From: Bradyrhizobium cytisi
GTDB taxonomy: Bacteria; Pseudomonadota; Alphaproteobacteria; Rhizobiales; Xanthobacteraceae
Assembly (NCBI RefSeq): GCF_008123515.1
Contig: NZ_VSSR01000011.1
Coordinates: 186,001-250,000, forward strand
DNA length: 64,000 nt
Direction: 5' to 3'
Under the pieces are notes generated by a model, which made no database searches, had not been told where the DNA came from, and worked only from the letters and a program-made list of their open reading frames with translations. The translations under genes were made by a program, and so were the position numbers. Within the stretch, counting starts at the first letter, position 1. Every line of letters begins with the position of its first letter. Of the stretch, positions 25,152 to 35,235 are shown piece by piece.

Positions 25152-26141
25152 TCATGCGTCGCTTTCGCGACGAGCCCGCTCTCTTGCGTCTGATGGGGTC
25201 ATGCAGAAGCGGCGGCGGAAGGTGCGCGTGAAATAGGAGAGGTCGCCGAAGCCAACCTTGAAAGCGACGTCGCTGATGGCGCGATTGGAAAAACGGGGAT
25301 CGCTCAGCATCCGGTTGGCTTGGACTAACCGTTGTTCAAGGACATATTCCGTGAACGTGGTGCCTTCGCTCTCGAACAGCTTCTGAATGTAGCGCGGCGT
25401 GACGCTATGGTGCAAAGCGACATAGGTGATCGACAGCTCGCGCCGGCCGAGATTTTCGACAATGTTCGACATGATTGCTCGCAGCCTTGCCGAGCGTATC
25501 CCACGTCCTTCAACGAGAATTGCCGCGTCCTGTGTGGCGCCGAGTGCGGATGCAAGCAGGTCGTGGATATGCGTGACAGCCAGGCGCTGTAACTCGGGGT
25601 CGCAAAGCTTGTCAGCTTCGTTGACAATGCCGAGATAGCTCGTGAGCAGCCGCAGCGCTTCGCTGTGCTTCGAAATCGGACGGACGAGCATTGAACCCGC
25701 CTCGACGACCATCGGCGATATGGCGTCGCGCGGCACCGAGAGGGTCAGAAAGCGACCTCCCGAATGCAAGGTGCAAATGCTTGGTTCGGTCGCCGACATC
25801 AGCAACGCTTCCCCTACTCCTATGGTGGCTTCGCGGCCTCGTTGCGAGATGATGCCCACGCCGTTCGTGACCACGGCAAAGATGAGATTGTCGGTGGATT
25901 TGGTCGCGAGCTCGCGCGTCATGCGGTAGTGCGAGTCCGACCTGTGGCCGGCAGCCACTCCCAATCCCGGAAGCGAGCGCAACGTCACGCCAGCGCGAAA
26001 CGGAGTGTCGTTAATCGGCTTGATGTCGAATTTTGCGATCGTGCGGCCATAGATCTCGCGCCACATCGCCAGACGCCGATGAACCGGAAAGGCGTCGGTC
26101 GAAATGTGCAAGGGCGCGAACGGGACTGGCGCGTCGGTCAT
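25152..26141 (-). CDS. AraC-family transcriptional regulator
   Basis: AraC/XylS regulator, 329 aa from the ATG at 26141 (an in-frame start at 26216 is possible). The N-terminal effector domain (about 10-190) resembles AraC_binding_2 (RRLAMWREIYGRTIAKFDI, LIFAVVTNGVGIISQRGRE). The C-terminal domain has both helix-turn-helix units: ITYVALHHSVTPRYIQKLFE and ISDVAFKVGFGDLSYFTRTF. It lies 100 nt upstream of nothing on its own strand but next to the TOMM operon's end; a link is not shown. Confidence 0.9.
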   Translation of the reverse strand: MTDAPVPFAPLHISTDAFPVHRRLAMWREIYGRTIAKFDIKPINDTPFRAGVTLRSLPGLGVAAGHRSDSHYRMTRELATKSTDNLIFAVVTNGVGIISQRGREATIGVGEALLMSATEPSICTLHSGGRFLTLSVPRDAISPMVVEAGSMLVRPISKHSEALRLLTSYLGIVNEADKLCDPELQRLAVTHIHDLLASALGATQDAAILVEGRGIRSARLRAIMSNIVENLGRRELSITYVALHHSVTPRYIQKLFESEGTTFTEYVLEQRLVQANRMLSDPRFSNRAISDVAFKVGFGDLSYFTRTFRRRFCMTPSDARERARRESDA

Positions 26142-26318
26142 GGCCCTGTTTGTTACATAAGATCGAGCGGGGAGCGAGCCTTCCGAAAGGGCCGTCGGGT
26201 ATTGAGGCGTCACCACCCAGTGTTGCAGGATAGCACCACGCCGCTGGGGAATGACTGCGAGTACGCAGGGGTCCAGACGTCATTCGCTCCAGACCAAGCC
26301 GAGCCTCCGCCGGGGCTG

Positions 26319-27776
26319 CTAGCTTGGGATTGCCGCCTTCCTCCCACGCCCGAGCGCAAACTGCCCGACCGGCCCCTCGACATAAAATTCCAGCCCCGTC
26401 ATTTTTGCGAACAGATCGATATTGCCGGTGCCGATGGCGCAGCCGCCGAGGCCCATGTCGGTGGCGGCCAGGTAGAACGTCTGGATCAGGCAGCCGACGT
26501 TTTTCAGGATCAGCGAATAGGCGATCGAAGAGTATTTCCAGGAGATCCGGCCGAAGCGCGCGGCGATCGTGATCAGGATCTGCGGCGGACCGGATGCTCC
26601 CATCGCAAATTCGGCGGCCATCGAAAGCGCCTGGAGTTGATTGGCGGAGGCGTCGATTGCGACCAGTGCGTGGCCGCCGGCGTCATAGTGATAAAGCCCG
26701 GGCGCAAGGCCCTCGCACTTCGAGACCGTCAGGTACAGCTCCAGCTCATAGGCGCTGCCTGCGCCCGGATACGGTCTCGAGCTGTAGGTGACCTCCGGGC
26801 CGCCGTCGACATCGGCGCCGCTCTTCCATTCCGACAGCACGCGGGCGGTGGCGTCGAGAAACCGCGCGAGCTCGGCGAGCGTGACGGGATGCTGATCGTC
26901 GAAATCCCGTGTCGAGTGGCGCGCGCGTAGCAGTTTTGCGAAGGGCGACGCGGGCTCCGGCGTGGCGAATTTGCCGAGGGAGATTTTCTTGCCGCGCCAG
27001 GGCGGGCGCACGGCAGGCAGCGGCGGAATAGCCCCCGCATGCGCGTACGTGCCGCCAACCGGATTGGCGTGCCGGCCCTCCGTGCTCCGCGCGTGAAACA
27101 CGAGGTCGTGGAAATCCCAGAGAGCGAGGTTGCTGTCGCCGTTTTCCAGGCGAAGGCCGTCTCCGTCTTTCGTGTCGCGCTTGATCAGCATCTCGCTGTC
27201 GAGCAGCAGTCCGAGCAGATCGAGGTTCAGGGAGGCCGTCTGCTTGCGAAGCTTGCTGATCATTTGCGGTTGCGACAGGGCAGCCAGCGTGGCGGCGATG
27301 GCGGGATCGCAAATCCGGAACAGCGCGCCGGCGCGCGGCGATTCCAGCACCATCTCGTTGCCGCGCCGGCGCAAATAAGCATAGCGCGACAACACGATCG
27401 TATCGGCGCTCGATAGCTTGGCGCGTTGCGGCCAGTATCCGGCGATCTGGGGCTCGATGACCACCAGGTCTTGCGCGTCACGGGGAGAGAACAGGCGATA
27501 GTCGAGCAGCCCATGCTGCGCCAACCGCCGCACCAGAGCATGAAGCTGCCGCGCGAGGGTGCTCTTGCCGGCAAGGGAGGTGAGCGGCAGGCCGGCGGCC
27601 AGATGCCCCGCGCGCGCGATTGCCGCGGCGCTGAATTGTCCGAGGCTCACCGAATAATCGCCCGAGACCGCGGCAATGCTTCCGTCGGCCTGCATGTGAA
27701 GCGAGAAGCGGCCGTTCAGCCGGGCGGCGATGATGGGCGCGCTTGTCCTGCTCGGCTTTTTCCGGGGAACGCGCAA
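26319..27776 (-). CDS. SagB-type azoline dehydrogenase (TOMM biosynthesis)
   Basis: FMN-dependent oxidase that turns thiazolines/oxazolines into thiazoles/oxazoles in TOMM natural products, 485 aa. The C-terminal nitroreductase domain (about 270-485) shows LLRARHSTRDFDD, RPYPGAGSAYELELYL, and SSIAYSLILKNVGCLIQTFY followed by AATDMGLGGCAIGTGN, the SagB/McbC hallmark. The N-terminal half (about 1-250) is the poorly conserved leader domain of SagB-like proteins. The start is TTG at 27776, 12 nt after the cyclodehydratase stop; a shorter form from M28 is possible. It is the last gene of the TOMM operon. Confidence 0.9.
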   Translation of the reverse strand: MRVPRKKPSRTSAPIIAARLNGRFSLHMQADGSIAAVSGDYSVSLGQFSAAAIARAGHLAAGLPLTSLAGKSTLARQLHALVRRLAQHGLLDYRLFSPRDAQDLVVIEPQIAGYWPQRAKLSSADTIVLSRYAYLRRRGNEMVLESPRAGALFRICDPAIAATLAALSQPQMISKLRKQTASLNLDLLGLLLDSEMLIKRDTKDGDGLRLENGDSNLALWDFHDLVFHARSTEGRHANPVGGTYAHAGAIPPLPAVRPPWRGKKISLGKFATPEPASPFAKLLRARHSTRDFDDQHPVTLAELARFLDATARVLSEWKSGADVDGGPEVTYSSRPYPGAGSAYELELYLTVSKCEGLAPGLYHYDAGGHALVAIDASANQLQALSMAAEFAMGASGPPQILITIAARFGRISWKYSSIAYSLILKNVGCLIQTFYLAATDMGLGGCAIGTGNIDLFAKMTGLEFYVEGPVGQFALGRGRKAAIPS

Positions 27777-27788
27777 CGAGACCAGCCT

Positions 27789-30029
27789 TCAGGTGTGTGG
27801 CAGGAACGGAGTGAGCTCGCTTTCCAGCCGCGGGCGGTCCAGCAGCCCAAGCTTCACCGGGACGTCGTAAAGCCGGCCGGGCCCGAAGCGGCGATAGAAA
27901 TGCCGCAGGCCCGGAACGAGCACCCTGACGACGGGGACCTCGACATCGGGCCGCGTCTGGTCGAGCACGAGAAAATCATATCCTGCGCGGCCCGCGATCT
28001 CCACGCAGGCATTGACCTGGTCGCGCGTGTTGTCGTGAACTGTGATCCCAGGCGCCGGCGGGAGCAGCGGATTGTCGCTGGGGGTCAGGAACGGATAATC
28101 GTCCAGCCGCAGCGGTGTGACACCGTCAAGCGACGGCTTCTCGCCGCTGCCGCCGCTCATCATCCCGATCGACATGAACTGGGTCAGCTCGGTAAGCGAA
28201 CGCAGCAAGGCGATGCGGCGATCGAAATGCGAGCCGGACCCGAACTCGATGTTCTCGTGTCCGTTCTGCATCCAGTGCATGATCGCAACATAGGAGGGAA
28301 TGCCGAGATCGCTGGTGATGTCGAGCACCCAGAGCCGGCGGCCCGCATCGGCAAACTGGCTCTGGAGATCCCGCACATAGGAATCCTCGAATTGCGAGAG
28401 ATCGAGTTCGGCACGCTGCACGCGGTTGTACCACCAGATCGCGTACGCATCGCGTTCGACCAGTTCGAGGAAACCTTGAACGATGGCCTCCTCGCGGGTG
28501 TTGCCGGCAGCGCATCCGTTCGAATCGGTGTGGAAGCCGCCATAGAAGAAATACAAAAGACCGGTCGGAAGATATTTGAAACGCTTGTCGCGCAACGACC
28601 AGACCGGCGACCACTCGGTTCTGGTCGCGGGATCGAACGGCTCGGGAACCGGATGCGAATCGTCCGGCAGCGGGACATGCCGGTTTTGAAATTGCATATC
28701 GCTGAAGAACTGGACGTCGTTGGGAAGGAGCGCGTCACCGGGAGCGAAATCGGCAAAGCGGCGCGTCGTCCTGATCTCGTCGCCCTGGAAGATGCCGGAA
28801 TAGCGCTCGATCGCCTCCATCAGTGCACTGGCCTCGCCCTGCTCGGCCGTGGAGCCCTTGCCGAAGCTGCCGCCGCTCAGGCCTGACCTGAGCTGGTCGA
28901 CGTTCCAGGCCGGCGCAGAGAAATTGTGGTGCGCAAAAAAATTGGTGTTCATCGGCAGGTCGACCTCGATCCGCTCGAGCCGCGACACCACGCCGGTCAG
29001 CGGGCTGACGTGCTTGCGGAACCGCGCCACGGTCGCTCGCGACGTCACGGTGCGGTATCCGCCGCTGGTCATGACCAGCTTTCTGCCCTCGGCAAGCTCG
29101 ATCGGCGCTGCTGTTCGTCGCGGATTCCTGAGCTTCCTGCTGCCGCAGGTCGCGCATTGCGGGCGCTTCGCGACGTAGTGCTTGGCGATGGCCGCCCCGG
29201 TCAAATCGAAGCTTGCGATGTGATTGGTGAGATCGGTGCGAAATCCGGAGGCGATCGCCTTCGCGATTTCAATAGCAGCGAAATGGATCGCGGTCTCGCC
29301 CACGGTGTCGCTGACCAGCGGCGATATGGCGACCGCCTGCGCCGCTCCGCGGTCCAGAAATCCCTTGATCTCGCGATTGCGGATCATGCGATCATGCAGG
29401 CAGGTCCAGCAGGCGCTCTCGCCCGGCTTGAACACGGGCCCCACCAGCGGAAACGCGCCGGACGGCTGGACCAGCAGCCAGGGCGTCCCGTCGGCGACGC
29501 GTTCGCCGTTCAGTTCGGCGAGCTGCCGTTCGAGGTAGTCGTTCACCAGCGTGATGATGAGCCTGGGCGATCGCCTGGCGATGTGAACCCCGAGCTTGCC
29601 CAACGCCGCGCTCAGTTCGCCCGCGCCTTTGACGTCGATCGATTCGACCCGCACAGGCCAATTGCACAGGTTCTCTTCGGCGACCTCCGGAGGCAGGCCG
29701 AGGCTTGCCCAATAGCCATCAACGGCGCCTGCGTGCGATGCTCCGTTGACGCAGTAGCGGCGCTCCAGCAGCCGCCTGATTGCTTCCTCGATCCCGGTGA
29801 CGGGAAAACTCTTCGAGAGCTGGCGGATGATCTCCGGCGCCGTCTTGCCGTTCTTTCCGATTGCGCTTGCCACGGCGCAATAGAGATCGCCGTGCAGGAA
29901 GAACTTGCGGTTCTCGGAATAGAGACAGACCGCATTGGGAGGAAGCAGATAGGCGGTGAAGTTTGGTGCGAATCGCAAAATGTCCTTGCGGGTCTGCTTC
30001 GCAGCGTTGCTCTTTCGCTTGACTGTCAT
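27789..30029 (-). CDS. Fused E1-like/YcaO cyclodehydratase of a TOMM (azole-modified peptide) system
   Basis: 746-aa fusion that makes azolines from Cys/Ser/Thr of a ribosomal precursor. The N-terminal part (about 15-355) holds the leader-binding region and the E1-like (ocin_ThiF) domain, with four zinc-type cysteines C207, C210 (CWTC) and C292, C295 (CATC). The C-terminal YcaO domain starts near 360; its ATP-binding motifs are SGGSFGKGSTAEQGEASALM with EAIERYSG (about 385-411), GNTREEAIVQGFLELVERDA, and the GSHFDRRIALLRSLTE segment. The C-terminus ends PFLPHT, a proline-containing tail as in many YcaO enzymes. It lies between the precursor gene and the SagB gene. Confidence 0.94.
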   Translation of the reverse strand: MTVKRKSNAAKQTRKDILRFAPNFTAYLLPPNAVCLYSENRKFFLHGDLYCAVASAIGKNGKTAPEIIRQLSKSFPVTGIEEAIRRLLERRYCVNGASHAGAVDGYWASLGLPPEVAEENLCNWPVRVESIDVKGAGELSAALGKLGVHIARRSPRLIITLVNDYLERQLAELNGERVADGTPWLLVQPSGAFPLVGPVFKPGESACWTCLHDRMIRNREIKGFLDRGAAQAVAISPLVSDTVGETAIHFAAIEIAKAIASGFRTDLTNHIASFDLTGAAIAKHYVAKRPQCATCGSRKLRNPRRTAAPIELAEGRKLVMTSGGYRTVTSRATVARFRKHVSPLTGVVSRLERIEVDLPMNTNFFAHHNFSAPAWNVDQLRSGLSGGSFGKGSTAEQGEASALMEAIERYSGIFQGDEIRTTRRFADFAPGDALLPNDVQFFSDMQFQNRHVPLPDDSHPVPEPFDPATRTEWSPVWSLRDKRFKYLPTGLLYFFYGGFHTDSNGCAAGNTREEAIVQGFLELVERDAYAIWWYNRVQRAELDLSQFEDSYVRDLQSQFADAGRRLWVLDITSDLGIPSYVAIMHWMQNGHENIEFGSGSHFDRRIALLRSLTELTQFMSIGMMSGGSGEKPSLDGVTPLRLDDYPFLTPSDNPLLPPAPGITVHDNTRDQVNACVEIAGRAGYDFLVLDQTRPDVEVPVVRVLVPGLRHFYRRFGPGRLYDVPVKLGLLDRPRLESELTPFLPHT

Positions 30030-30208
30030 CGGGTCAGCACGCGGATCCTGTTCCCGTCATGTCCGATTGCCGGCGCACGACGGAGCTTGAAGCGGCCCGA
30101 CTTGTGCGCCGAATTCGACCGGCCTTCTTCGAACAAGTTGGAACACACTCGCTCGCCATCGGCAAGCTGAGGAGCCGGGCGAAACGAATCCTGTGGCGAC
30201 AACAGCAA

Positions 30209-30240
30209 ATTGGCCGGGGTCGTTAGCGAACCCGGCCAAT
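30209..30240 (-). terminator. Hairpin between TOMM precursor and biosynthesis genes (attenuator-like)
   Basis: A perfect 10-bp stem (ATTGGCCGGG at 30209-30218 with CCCGGCCAAT at 30231-30240) and a 12-nt loop, 43 nt downstream of the precursor stop and about 180 nt before the cyclodehydratase start. On the minus strand it is followed by TTTGCTGTTGT, a weak U-rich tract. It may be a partial terminator that gives more precursor than enzyme, as is common in peptide-maturation operons. Confidence 0.6.
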
Positions 30241-30282
30241 GAAATCGCGACCTGTCGATGTCCGGTCAAGAAGCGCCAGCGC

Positions 30283-30738
30283 CTAGCACCAGCGGCAGCG
30301 GCCCCATGATGCGCAGCATCCTGTGCATGCCACCGGCGCAACAACGGCGCAGCCAATGCCAACGCCACAACCGACGCCGCAGCGACAGGCTCTGCAGCCT
30401 GCGCAGCCTCGGCAGCCACCGCAACCTCTGCAACCACCGCATCCTCTGCAGCCGCCGCATCCGCGCGCAAGCAGCACGCCGCTGAGAGTCTTCTCGTCAC
30501 TAGCGAGATGGAAGGTGGCGAGATTGACGTCGGCGAGCTCTTCCTCGCTGAGCGCAGAGAACTGGCCAGGCGAAAAATTCACTCGTTGTTGAGGCTCGTC
30601 CGCCGGCACTGCGGACGCCATCGCGCTTCCCGCCATCGAAAAGGTCAGTCCGGCAAATCCGAGCGCCGGTACTGCAGCTTTGGTCATTCGCTTCTTTTTC
30701 GAAGCTTGCTTCGCTCGCTGCACGGCTGCATCCTCCAT
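30283..30738 (-). CDS. Cysteine-rich TOMM precursor peptide
   Basis: Predicted substrate of the adjacent cyclodehydratase, 151 aa. Residues 1-93 contain no cysteine and form the leader: a basic start (ASKKKRMTK), a signal-peptide-like hydrophobic stretch (about 20-42), then an acidic part (FSALSEEELADVNLATFHLA). Residues 94-151 contain 17 cysteines; from 94 to 118 every third residue is Cys (units CGGCRG, encoded by an 18-nt tandem repeat), followed by a less regular Gly/Cys tail ending RCRWC. The start could be M18 at 30687, which has AGAAGCGA upstream. No close named family is recognised; the repeat pattern recalls heterocycloanthracin-type precursors. Confidence 0.85.
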   Translation of the reverse strand: MEDAAVQRAKQASKKKRMTKAAVPALGFAGLTFSMAGSAMASAVPADEPQQRVNFSPGQFSALSEEELADVNLATFHLASDEKTLSGVLLARGCGGCRGCGGCRGCGGCRGCAGCRACRCGVGCGVGIGCAVVAPVACTGCCASWGRCRWC

Positions 30739-30835
30739 GGTCGGAAGAACGATCTTCTACAATCATCCTACGCCGAGCAATCAAAGCGGGCAAGATTCGC
30801 GTGAACACGAAATGTAATGGCGCTGGTTCAGATTG

Positions 30836-30853
30836 CATTCATCTTCATGAATG
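30836..30853. promoter_or_regulatory. Inverted repeat in the precursor/VOC divergent region
   Basis: CATTCAT-CTTC-ATGAATG, a perfect 7-bp inverted repeat with a 4-nt spacer, about 100 nt from both the precursor start and the divergent VOC-protein start. It is a possible regulator site; no adjacent regulator can be tied to it from sequence alone. Confidence 0.3.
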
Positions 30854-30953
30854 GCATTGCCACAAATTCCTGTCCAAATTCCCTATCGATGACACGGGCT
30901 GCGGCGCATGATGCAGTGCGCAACCGTCTGTCCGCGCGAACGGGGACACTAGC

Positions 30954-31823
30954 TTGGTCGTTCAACTCGGACGCTTTGTTTGGCATGAGCTTCTGACGAC
31001 GGATATGCCGTCGGCGGCTGCTTTTTACGCCGGGGTGGTCGGCTGGGCTGTGAAAGATGTGTCGAGCCCGGAACTGGCTTACACGCTACTGGCTGCAGGC
31101 GACGCTCCGGTCGTCGGGCTGATGGATCTCCCCGAAGAAGGGGTGCGAATGGGAGCAACACCGAGATGGCTCGGCTACGTCGCCGTCGATGACATGGATG
31201 CGCGGGTCGCGCAGATCCGCCGGCTTGGAGGCGCGATCCTCGTCGCGCCGACCGACAGCAACATCGGCCGCATTGCGGTGGTCGCCGATCCGCAAGGAGC
31301 GACGTTTGCGCTGGTCACCGGGCCGACATATGGCCAATCGCAACAGAACGGGTTGGACCAGCCCGGGCGCGTGGGCTGGCACGAGTTGCTGGCTGAAGAC
31401 CGAAGCAAGGTCTTTCCGTTTTACGGCAAGCTTCTCGGCTGGCAACAGGCCTCCACTGAGGCCGACCCGGCAAGCGTGTACGAATTGTTTTCGGCGGCCG
31501 GGCAGACGATCGGCGGCATGCTCACCAAGCTTCCGAGCGTACCGCAGGCGTGTTGGCTTCATTACTTCAATGTCGACGACGTCGGGGTGGCGGCCCGGCG
31601 GGTCGATGCCGGCGGGGGCCGGGTTCTTCAGGAGCCGATCGAGTTGCCCGATGGTTGCTGGATCGTGCGATGTGTCGATCCCCAGGGCGCCCTGTTTGCA
31701 CTGCAGGGGGCGTGGGATCAAAAGGGCATCGCGCGATCCTCCGCCCCGGAGGTCACCTGGTCCGCCAAATGGGGTGACATTGCTTCACAGGGCCGGATGG
31801 TGCTTCACAAGACGAAGCGCTAG
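30954..31823 (+). CDS. VOC-superfamily protein (two glyoxalase-like domains)
   Basis: 289-aa protein with two vicinal-oxygen-chelate domains in tandem (about 8-125 and 135-265). Each begins alike (GRFVWHELLTTDMPSAAAFY and GRVGWHELLAEDRSKVFPFY) and ends in a DPQGA-FAL strand, as in CFP-30B-like proteins. The family includes glyoxalases, dioxygenases and antibiotic-binding resistance proteins. The start is TTG with GGGGAC upstream. It is divergent from the TOMM precursor, so a self-protection role is conceivable but unsupported beyond position. Confidence 0.85.
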   Translation: MVVQLGRFVWHELLTTDMPSAAAFYAGVVGWAVKDVSSPELAYTLLAAGDAPVVGLMDLPEEGVRMGATPRWLGYVAVDDMDARVAQIRRLGGAILVAPTDSNIGRIAVVADPQGATFALVTGPTYGQSQQNGLDQPGRVGWHELLAEDRSKVFPFYGKLLGWQQASTEADPASVYELFSAAGQTIGGMLTKLPSVPQACWLHYFNVDDVGVAARRVDAGGGRVLQEPIELPDGCWIVRCVDPQGALFALQGAWDQKGIARSSAPEVTWSAKWGDIASQGRMVLHKTKR

Positions 31824-33376: not shown

Positions 33377-33848
33377 TCCAAACTACTCACTTGAATATCA
33401 CCGGCGTCAAAATCACCGACGTCGCTTGAAAATCGCTCCCGAGCCGATCGATCCGCCAATGGCGAATGTCACAGCCCGTTCGCTCATGGTCTTACCACCG
33501 CGATTCCGCGGCGCAAAAGGGGTACTCCGAGCACAAACTCTTGTGACGCCATTTGGCCGGATGCCGTGGCTTTCGTGAATGCCGGGAGATCTGCGCTCGA
33601 CGGCGGAGATCCTATCCTCGGTCTGTGGGATGTCCTGAGTAAAACTTCGGCAGATGTCGCGCTGCGTATGCAGACTAAATCGAGTTGCAGCAGTGGATGA
33701 TGCAAAAGTCCTTCCTGAAGATGCCATTGAATGATGGCGGGCAAATGACTCAAGGGCTCGCAACGCGCAGGTCCCCTTCCGGTTCCATTCCGCTCGATTC
33801 ACGCCGCCCTTGTGCTATTGCTGCTCCGCGCAACGATGCGAGGTTTCC
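33377..33848. other. Intergenic stretch with no recognised gene
   Basis: About 470 nt between the divergent LuxR regulator and a beta-barrel protein gene. A 129-codon minus-strand frame (33413-33802) has no ribosome site or recognisable domain. I see no repeat, RNA gene or promoter I would defend. Confidence 0.5.
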
Positions 33849-34508
33849 ATGCTCCCCATTCCCGCCGACATTTTCACCGAGCCCGAGGACGTCTCGTCCG
33901 ACAGCCTTGCCAATCTCGGGCCGCTCCGCCGGCTCGCCGGCACCTGGCAGGCGGACAAGGGCATCGATATCAATCCGAAGGCGGAGGGGCCGGAGCGGCG
34001 GACCTTCATCGAGCATATCCGGATGGACCCGATCGATCCGCAGGCCAACGGGCCACAGCTGTTCTACGGGCTGCGCTATCACATTCACATCAACACGCCC
34101 GAGGAAGACATCACCTTCCACGACCAGGTCGGCTACTGGCTCTGGGAGCCCGCGACCGGGTTGATCATGCAGACGCTTGCGATCCCGCGCGGGCAGGTGC
34201 TGCTGGCCTCCGGCCAGGCCAAGCCGGATGATAAAAAGATCTCCGTCACAGCGAAGCGCGGCGACACCGCTTACGGGATCTGCTCGACCGACTTCCTGGA
34301 ACAAGCCTTCCGCACCGATAGTTACCGCTGCGACATCAGCTTCAACGACGATGGTAGCTGGAGCTACGAGATCCAGACCGAGTTGTTCGTCCGCGGGGCG
34401 CCGTTCGACCATCATGATAGTAATACGCTTCTGCTGGTCGCACCGCCAAAACTCAATCCGCTCGCGGTGATCGTGAACAATCGCGCCAAGGATGGTAAGC
34501 CGGCCTGA
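33849..34508 (+). CDS. FABP-like/nitrobindin-type heme-binding beta-barrel protein
   Basis: 219 aa from the ATG at 33849 (GAGG upstream). It starts after a short tail with LGPLRRLAGTWQADKGIDINPKAEGPE, the N-terminal signature of the THAP4/nitrobindin-like beta-barrel (DUF1794-type) family, and continues with F-x-DQVGYWLWEPATGLIMQTLAIPRGQ, which also fits. Such proteins bind heme or fatty ligands in a ten-strand barrel. No signal peptide. It lies 22 nt before a RibD-like reductase gene and may be co-transcribed. Confidence 0.75.
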   Translation: MLPIPADIFTEPEDVSSDSLANLGPLRRLAGTWQADKGIDINPKAEGPERRTFIEHIRMDPIDPQANGPQLFYGLRYHIHINTPEEDITFHDQVGYWLWEPATGLIMQTLAIPRGQVLLASGQAKPDDKKISVTAKRGDTAYGICSTDFLEQAFRTDSYRCDISFNDDGSWSYEIQTELFVRGAPFDHHDSNTLLLVAPPKLNPLAVIVNNRAKDGKPA

Positions 34509-34530
34509 CGAGCGGGCACGGAGAATTTGT

Positions 34531-35235
34531 ATGAAGCCTTACGTCATCTGTCTGATGCACGCGAGCCTCGACGGCCGCACCCATCCCAGCCGCTGGCGCC
34601 CGAAGGGCGCCGGCACCGACTGGTTCGAGAAGATCCATGACGAGCTCGGCGGCGATGCCTGGGTGATCGGCCGCGTCACCGGCTCCGAGTTCGCCAAGGG
34701 CAAGCCCTATCCCGGGACGGCGCGCGAAATACTCCCGCGCGAAAACTGGTTGGCGCGGCGCGATGCGGAAACCTATGGCGTGGTGCTCGACGCGCACGGC
34801 AAGATCGGCTGGGGCCGCTCTGACATCGGCGGCGATCCGATCGTCGTGGTGCTGACCGAGAGCGTACCGGATTCGCATCTCGCCGGCCTGCGTGGCGAGG
34901 GCGTGTCTTATATCTTCGCCGGAAAGTCCGAGATCGACCTCGCATTGGCCATCGAGATTCTCAATCGCGAGCTGGGCGTCAAGCGCCTGCTGGTGGAGGG
35001 CGGCGGCGTCGCCAATGGCGCGTTCCTCCGCGCCGGCCTGATCGACGAATTCAACCTGATCCTCAGCCCCGCGATCGATGGTGCCAGGGGTGCACCCTTC
35101 GTGTTCGATTCGACGGACGCCGACAGCGACAAGCGCGCGCCGCTCGCCGCGATGACGCTGGAGAGCACGCGGCAGCTCGGCGGCGGCGTGCTGCTGCTGC
35201 GCTACCTGATCCAGAACGACGCCGCGCGCCAATAA
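34531..35235 (+). CDS. RibD C-terminal/dihydrofolate-reductase-like protein
   Basis: 234 aa, pyrimidine-reductase fold (RibD_C). Features: MKPYVICLMHASLDGRTHPSRW, the Rossmann-like mid part (DPIVVVLTES) and the hallmark LGVKRLLVEGGGVANGAFLRAGLIDEFNLILSP-like C-terminus. Family members reduce deaminated flavin or pterin intermediates or act on drugs; the fused deaminase of RibD is absent, so this is not the main riboflavin enzyme. ACGGAGA precedes the ATG. It lies 9 nt upstream of a flavin amine oxidase. Confidence 0.85.
   Translation: MKPYVICLMHASLDGRTHPSRWRPKGAGTDWFEKIHDELGGDAWVIGRVTGSEFAKGKPYPGTAREILPRENWLARRDAETYGVVLDAHGKIGWGRSDIGGDPIVVVLTESVPDSHLAGLRGEGVSYIFAGKSEIDLALAIEILNRELGVKRLLVEGGGVANGAFLRAGLIDEFNLILSPAIDGARGAPFVFDSTDADSDKRAPLAAMTLESTRQLGGGVLLLRYLIQNDAARQ

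Follow-up and report, generated by a model that had tools for sequence, protein, structure and literature searches.

A 64-kb window of Bradyrhizobium cytisi (GCF_008123515.1, contig NZ_VSSR01000011.1, positions 186,001 to 250,000) was analysed; the window denotes this whole stretch, and coordinates are counted from its first base. The region 26319-31823 is well supported by gene content and conservation as a four-gene locus of the thiazole/oxazole-modified microcin (TOMM) or linear azol(in)e-containing peptide (LAP) type, with a precursor outside the curated families. A YcaO cyclodehydratase with a leader-binding domain, a SagB/McbC-type dehydrogenase and an adjoining precursor with leader and Cys-rich core were present. 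The predicted product is a multi-thiazole peptide. The locus rather probably turns many of the 17 Cys of the core into thiazoles in the cytoplasm and would then export the product through the general secretion (Sec) pathway by a signal-like N-terminus of the precursor. A sequence-only reading of this DNA had claimed a Cys-rich precursor, an E1-like/YcaO fusion and a SagB-type oxidase on one strand and in that order; all three were present in this arrangement on the minus strand at 26319-30738. The features were as follows, where RRE stands for the recognition element that binds the precursor of a ribosomally synthesised and post-translationally modified peptide (RiPP) and VOC for vicinal oxygen chelate.

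30283..30723, minus strand: precursor gene, probable GTG start; longer frame from ATG 30738
30610..30723, minus strand: N-terminal precursor segment resembling a signal peptide, up to AxA-type sites (VQRAKQASKKKRMTKAAVPALGFAGLTFSMAGSAMASA); post hoc test
30511..30552, minus strand: leader motif LSEEELADVNLATF, predicted RRE binding site; residue conservation in 17 relatives
30286..30465, minus strand: core, 60 residues with 17 Cys, predicted thiazole sites; end CCASWGRCRWC
30209..30240, minus strand: GC-rich hairpin in the gap from the precursor to the enzyme genes, perhaps an attenuator; hairpins in 67 of 72 loci
27789..30029, minus strand: fused RRE/E1-like and YcaO cyclodehydratase, 746 amino acids; TIGR03882, TIGR03604 (just below cut-off), PF02624, LynD/TruD
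26319..27776, minus strand: SagB/ThcOx-type dehydrogenase, 485 amino acids; TIGR03605, PF22767, PF00881, CyaGox
30954..31823, plus strand: double-VOC protein (glyoxalase/bleomycin-resistance superfamily), 289 amino acids, two VOC stretches; divergent from the precursor

Both enzymes were identified by curated profiles. The YcaO fusion reached 151.8 bits with TIGR03882, the TOMM leader-binding model (cut-off 36.9), and 299.4 bits with the Pfam YcaO family (PF02624). Its nearest solved relatives were LynD, with 469 bits over residues 17-741, and TruD, with 462 bits over residues 18-741. The SagB protein scored 173.8 bits with TIGR03605 (cut-off 78.4) and also matched the Pfam families ThcOx (PF22767) and Nitroreductase (PF00881). 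The nearest solved protein was CyaGox, with 185 bits over residues 125-479. In the profile comparison that the sequence-only reading had proposed, TIGR03882 and the SagB model TIGR03605 thus lay above their cut-offs and TIGR03604 fell 1.85 bits short. A search of the window's genome yielded a single YcaO gene.

The longer precursor frame comprised 151 amino acids with 17 Cys, every one of them within the final 60 residues. GTG 30723 is probably the start rather than ATG 30738, because a GGAGG falls among the opening codons of that frame, which is the longer one, and relatives share such sites. A GGAG/AGGA-type site preceded the matching start in 64 of 66 scored relatives, six of the 72 cluster precursors having no scorable start. 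The sequence-only reading had ended the locus at 30738, a limit that is moved by the divergent VOC gene at 30954-31823, which also belongs to the locus. In the core, Cys initially occupied every third residue, the middle was variable and the end was nearly fixed as C-C-x-S-W-G-x-C-R-x-C across relatives. Ahead of the core, L63, E66, E67, V71, L73, A74, T75 and F76 of LSEEELADVNLATF were invariant across 17 relatives selected without reference to the motif. This sample was used because part of the leader motif is built into the pattern by which the 72 cluster precursors were recognised. LSEEELADVNLATF is predicted to be the binding site for the RRE of the YcaO fusion. Comparison of the leader with solved structures returned two designed proteins only and was uninformative.

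No Pfam or NCBIfam family matched the precursor at E≤1. A protein collection search gave 2,875 matches at E≤1, of which weak ones may reflect low complexity. Among the 120 matches listed, those with names were mostly 'hypothetical protein', and one, P0006, was automatically named heterocycloanthracin/sonorensin. The precursor had been called apparently undescribed, which holds in that it fits no curated family and is qualified by the family name attached to this one relative.

The N-terminus of the precursor was signal-like. A four-part test, with a basic stretch, an uncharged hydrophobic stretch and an AxA site among its requirements, was passed by 92 of 108 relatives and by 12 of 21,600 shuffled sequences; it was devised post hoc and uses simple criteria rather than a dedicated predictor. 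The tested relatives were the 72 cluster precursors from named loci, of which 69 passed, and 36 precursors encoded away from the enzymes, of which 23 passed. Four cluster precursors found by inspection were left out.

The locus is real and widespread. Of 146 genus genomes, 60 carried both a close YcaO and the precursor. The YcaO search matched 62 genus genomes, and the two extra ones (G062, G095) carried proteins only 37-38% identical. Of 135 relatives found, 80 were named loci, and the flanks of these 80 were examined. The precursor preceded the YcaO gene in 76 of them, 72 recognised by pattern and four by inspection. The remaining four were L172, with just the Cys-rich precursor tail at a contig end, and L113, L150 and L177, which were cut. 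SagB lay downstream of YcaO in all 80. Named relatives were mostly Bradyrhizobium, in agreement with the earlier attribution to a rhizobium, with some from Xanthobacteraceae, Beijerinckiaceae and other metagenome-assembled genomes.

The recurrence of the divergent gene 30954-31823 emerged from the flanks of the 80 named loci. By direct search the VOC gene was found in 75; in the other five the contig ended at most 749 bases upstream of the YcaO gene. It was divergent from the precursor in 68 loci and lay beyond SagB on the opposite strand in seven (L164, L166, L167, L169, L171, L173 and L174), and has thus stayed with its partners although its position changed. At E≤1e-20 the VOC gene was present in the same 60 genus genomes as the precursor and in none of the other 86. 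The identities to the window of YcaO and VOC proteins were correlated (Spearman 0.94, 75 loci), as shared ancestry alone could also produce.

Precursor genes were not confined to the cluster. Eighteen of the 60 cluster genomes held 39 additional copies at sites apart from the enzymes, G053 having as many as six; in the window's genome the cluster copy was the only one found. The leader motif was present in all 36 that were read, where it served as the recognition criterion. Distal cores varied, and the signal-like segment was retained in many. Eight distal precursors, L079-L086, had three to five Cys and a Pro/Lys/His-rich tail. At E≤1e-5 no distal precursor was detected in the 86 genomes of the genus that lack the cluster, as expected if distal precursors need the cluster enzymes. 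The sequence-only reading had described the locus as holding the minimal enzymes for azole-modified peptides. The enzyme pair was indeed present, but the description was too narrow for a locus with an equally conserved VOC gene, a signal-like N-terminus and distal precursors in 18 of 60 genomes.

Several distal copies showed features of their own. L079-L086 (G043, G096, G083, G053, G123, G031) were near-identical solitary genes with a short Cys stretch, a fixed tail and the shared leader motif. G053 carried three copies of this type at distant places, with blocks of about 700 bases in common. A mobile element around distal precursors was considered and dropped: L079-L086 shared blocks of about 400 to 770 bases surrounding the gene, but no element was identified, the frames beside distal copies having been listed for eight of 36 loci. 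L065 (G053:C1:43181-49543) paired a distal precursor with a divergent VOC gene of its own, whose protein was 53% identical to that of the window, and no YcaO was found alongside. It is possibly a split-off module.

In 67 of 72 named loci, a GC-rich hairpin with a stem of at least 7 followed the precursor stop within 110 bases; the median offset was 43 bases. An arm with GGCCGG, GCCGGG or CCGGGT was present in 64 of the 72. Any hairpin with a stem of at least 7 occurred in 21 of 360 single-base shuffles and in 9 of 36 distal precursors. On the simplest reading, the hairpin would be an attenuator raising the precursor over the enzymes.

Neighbour clustering linked sense with antisense frames into chains, VOC frames and SagB shadow frames being mixed in the first row, and the top rows were therefore tested again by direct search. 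Besides VOC and SagB frames, no neighbour in this clustering was common to more than 24 of 81 loci, and neither a shared transporter gene nor a recurrent metal gene appeared among the cluster neighbours. The AraC gene at 25152-26216 was dropped as a cluster regulator, being present in 3 of 87 loci. Neighbours of the cupin, LuxR, THAP4-like and RibD_C types were likewise dropped, with 0, 3, 4 and 5 of 87 loci, respectively. The last two stand at 33810-35235 on the plus strand, a protein with a THAP4-like heme-binding domain followed by a RibD_C-domain protein, outside the azole locus.

Gene content, gene order, conservation and co-occurrence are read from the sequences; the biochemistry is inferred from them. 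In the proposed sequence of events, the RRE of the fusion would bind the leader motif and the YcaO domain would use ATP to cyclodehydrate Cys to thiazoline. The dehydrogenase would oxidise the thiazolines to thiazoles. Inside the cell, the VOC protein would bind the modified peptide, which would protect the producer or preserve the peptide in an exportable state. Signal peptidase would cleave at the AxA sites and free the azole-rich peptide to the periplasm or beyond. The hairpin past the precursor gene would likely hold the enzymes below the level of their substrate, and in other strains the same enzymes would receive additional cores in trans from distal precursor genes. Extended to the relatives, this describes a family of azole-packed peptides that leave by Sec through their own cleavable signals, with a dedicated VOC guardian and dispersed precursors of varied core feeding one enzyme pair. 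We advance this wider proposal tentatively, at slightly less than an even chance.

Several results weigh against these proposals. With TIGR03604, the SagD-type model, the YcaO fusion scored 217.4 bits, just below the cut-off of 219.25. A PxPxP C-terminus is a motif of azoline-forming YcaO enzymes; it was missing from eight aligned YcaO members, which ended in FLPHT or FLPHS. The signal-like test was failed by 13 of 36 distal and three of 72 cluster precursors, under criteria chosen post hoc. An RR pair lay within the first 40 tested residues in 32 of 108 relatives, and the twin-arginine translocation (Tat) route may apply to these. A structure model of the precursor, with a mean predicted local distance difference test (pLDDT) score of 45 and no secondary structure, was left unused. 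L178, from another family, had a 56% identical YcaO, a precursor and SagB, and showed no VOC match within about 6 kb on either side. Among the structural matches listed, the best relatives of the VOC protein were Rv0577 and AbxF, an enzyme of biosynthesis, rather than a protein that binds drugs.

The VOC protein may have a different role. It may be a tailoring enzyme that alters the azole peptide further, for example by isomerisation or ring formation, and not a binder or protector; the azole chemistry would be unchanged. The chance of this is appreciable, if below even. The protein had the superfamily fold, and its score with Ble-like_N was 19.0 bits, below the cut-off of 24.5. Bleomycin-resistance proteins were absent from the 50 structural matches listed, which excludes nothing.

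The exported peptide could also be an azole counterpart of the bufferins, an azole-bearing Cys-rich peptide that serves as a periplasmic buffer for copper or some other metal and does not attack rivals. The signal-like segment and Cys-rich core recall the Sec-exported, copper-binding bufferins, as described in PMC12452194, and the wide retention of the locus in the genus (60 of 146) would fit such a role. However, no metal gene recurred beside the cluster or occurred among the six flanking window proteins scanned. Bufferin makers are MNIO enzymes (multinuclear non-heme iron-dependent oxidative enzymes) and not YcaO, according to PMC12452194, and the varied distal cores suit a fixed metal site poorly. 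A buffering function is unlikely on this evidence.

Equally doubtful is the view that the N-terminal segment simply forms the hydrophobic portion of a long leader, or provides a double-Gly-type site for a peptidase-containing transporter encoded elsewhere, any export then using a dedicated transporter. The hydrophobic stretch was Gly-rich and moderately hydrophobic (median 15-residue hydropathy 1.66), and a double Gly stood ahead of ASAS in some members. This double Gly was inconstant, the residue after the first Gly being S, G or N, and no transporter gene was common to the neighbours. The basic N-terminus, uncharged stretch and AxA site were moreover combined in the 92 relatives noted above. 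An unmodified Cys-rich protein, metallothionein-like or structural and beside YcaO and SagB genes by chance, would suit 17 Cys in 60 residues, a sequence that cannot reveal modification, but is very improbable. Precursor and close YcaO share one set of 60 genomes, the 86 cluster-free genomes hold neither cluster-type nor distal copies, a leader-like motif is conserved ahead of the core, and the gene order is fixed.

The TOMM/LAP kind is already known, and this combination of features appears new within the literature searched. The leader motif presumably resembles the cyanobactin recognition motif, a likeness that was not found in the texts searched; the NHLP precursor of L180, described below, is used as the precedent in its place. 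The nearest solved enzymes to the fused YcaO and the oxidase, cyanobactin LynD/TruD and CyaGox/ThcOx, come from pathways with short core cassettes, according to PMC4663559, whereas the window locus has a single long Cys/Gly core and adds the signal-like N-terminus and the VOC partner. No PatA/PatG-type (subtilisin-like A/G) protease was detected in a Pfam scan of the six flanking proteins, a search that did not extend to the remaining genome. Heterocycloanthracin and sonorensin resemble the window precursor in the Gly-Cys repeats of the core, and their precursor genes may sit far from the enzymes, according to PMC4603692. The cyclodehydratase of heterocycloanthracin is described there as truncated and in need of an F protein, whereas the window fusion aligns to LynD from residue 17. 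TIGR03601 did not match the window precursor at E≤1 or E≤5. It gave weak matches in six of 17 relatives (best E 0.002), and L178 scored 17.2 bits against a cut-off of 35. The curated profile gives the heterocycloanthracin/sonorensin name no support for the window precursor or L178.

Bufferins have a Cys-rich precursor with an N-terminal signal, as PMC12452194 describes them, to which the Cys-rich precursor and its signal-like segment are comparable here. The window locus differs in using YcaO and SagB instead of an MNIO, in a separate leader motif between signal-like segment and core, and in the VOC partner. Neither the cluster genes nor the six flanking proteins scanned included an MNIO enzyme; this search, too, stopped short of the remaining genome. 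L180 (from G280), a TOMM with a nitrile hydratase-type (NHLP) leader, had a LynD-like YcaO 37% identical to that of the window and a related leader motif, LSEEELDQVSGG. Its precursor matched TIGR03793 with 87.7 bits (cut-off 50.9), a model without a match at E≤1 in the window precursor, and by this profile L180 is another system. Phazolicin, a LAP of Rhizobium sp. Pop5, is described as an azole peptide of a rhizobium; the likeness is one of description. According to PMC12452194, few bacterial RiPPs carry Sec signals, and bufferins are the only ones for which experiments have demonstrated export by Sec in the natural host. A description of the present locus was not found in the literature searched, which covered few subscription papers. 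In a word search of the main text of the 2015 TOMM survey PMC4603692, the strings 'rhizob' and 'signal' were absent.

A YcaO family with such signals would tie azole chemistry to general secretion and raise the question of how export waits for ring formation. From the strict linkage of the VOC gene, a new and testable role of this superfamily alongside azole peptides can be proposed. The distal precursors could serve as natural core libraries for a single enzyme pair. On the wider proposal, the whole would be a plug-in system by which Bradyrhizobium and related bacteria diversify the polythiazole peptides that they secrete. Legume symbionts are among the members of the host genus. A widely kept, putatively secreted azole peptide may matter for competition in soil or nodules.

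At the order level, YcaO alignments at E≤1e-40 were obtained in nine of 397 genomes, five in the genus and in addition G377, G352 (in two pieces), G280 and G462. L179 (G352), from another family, combined the YcaO match in two pieces with a diverged precursor and a VOC gene beyond SagB. L047, L048 and L049 (G062, G095, G083:C3) were other LynD-like YcaO proteins of the genus, 33-38% identical, and the signal-bearing precursor pattern was not nearby. L100 (JAUEPE010000004.1) was a 94% identical cluster in a record titled Frankia sp. RB7, a title that looks wrong.
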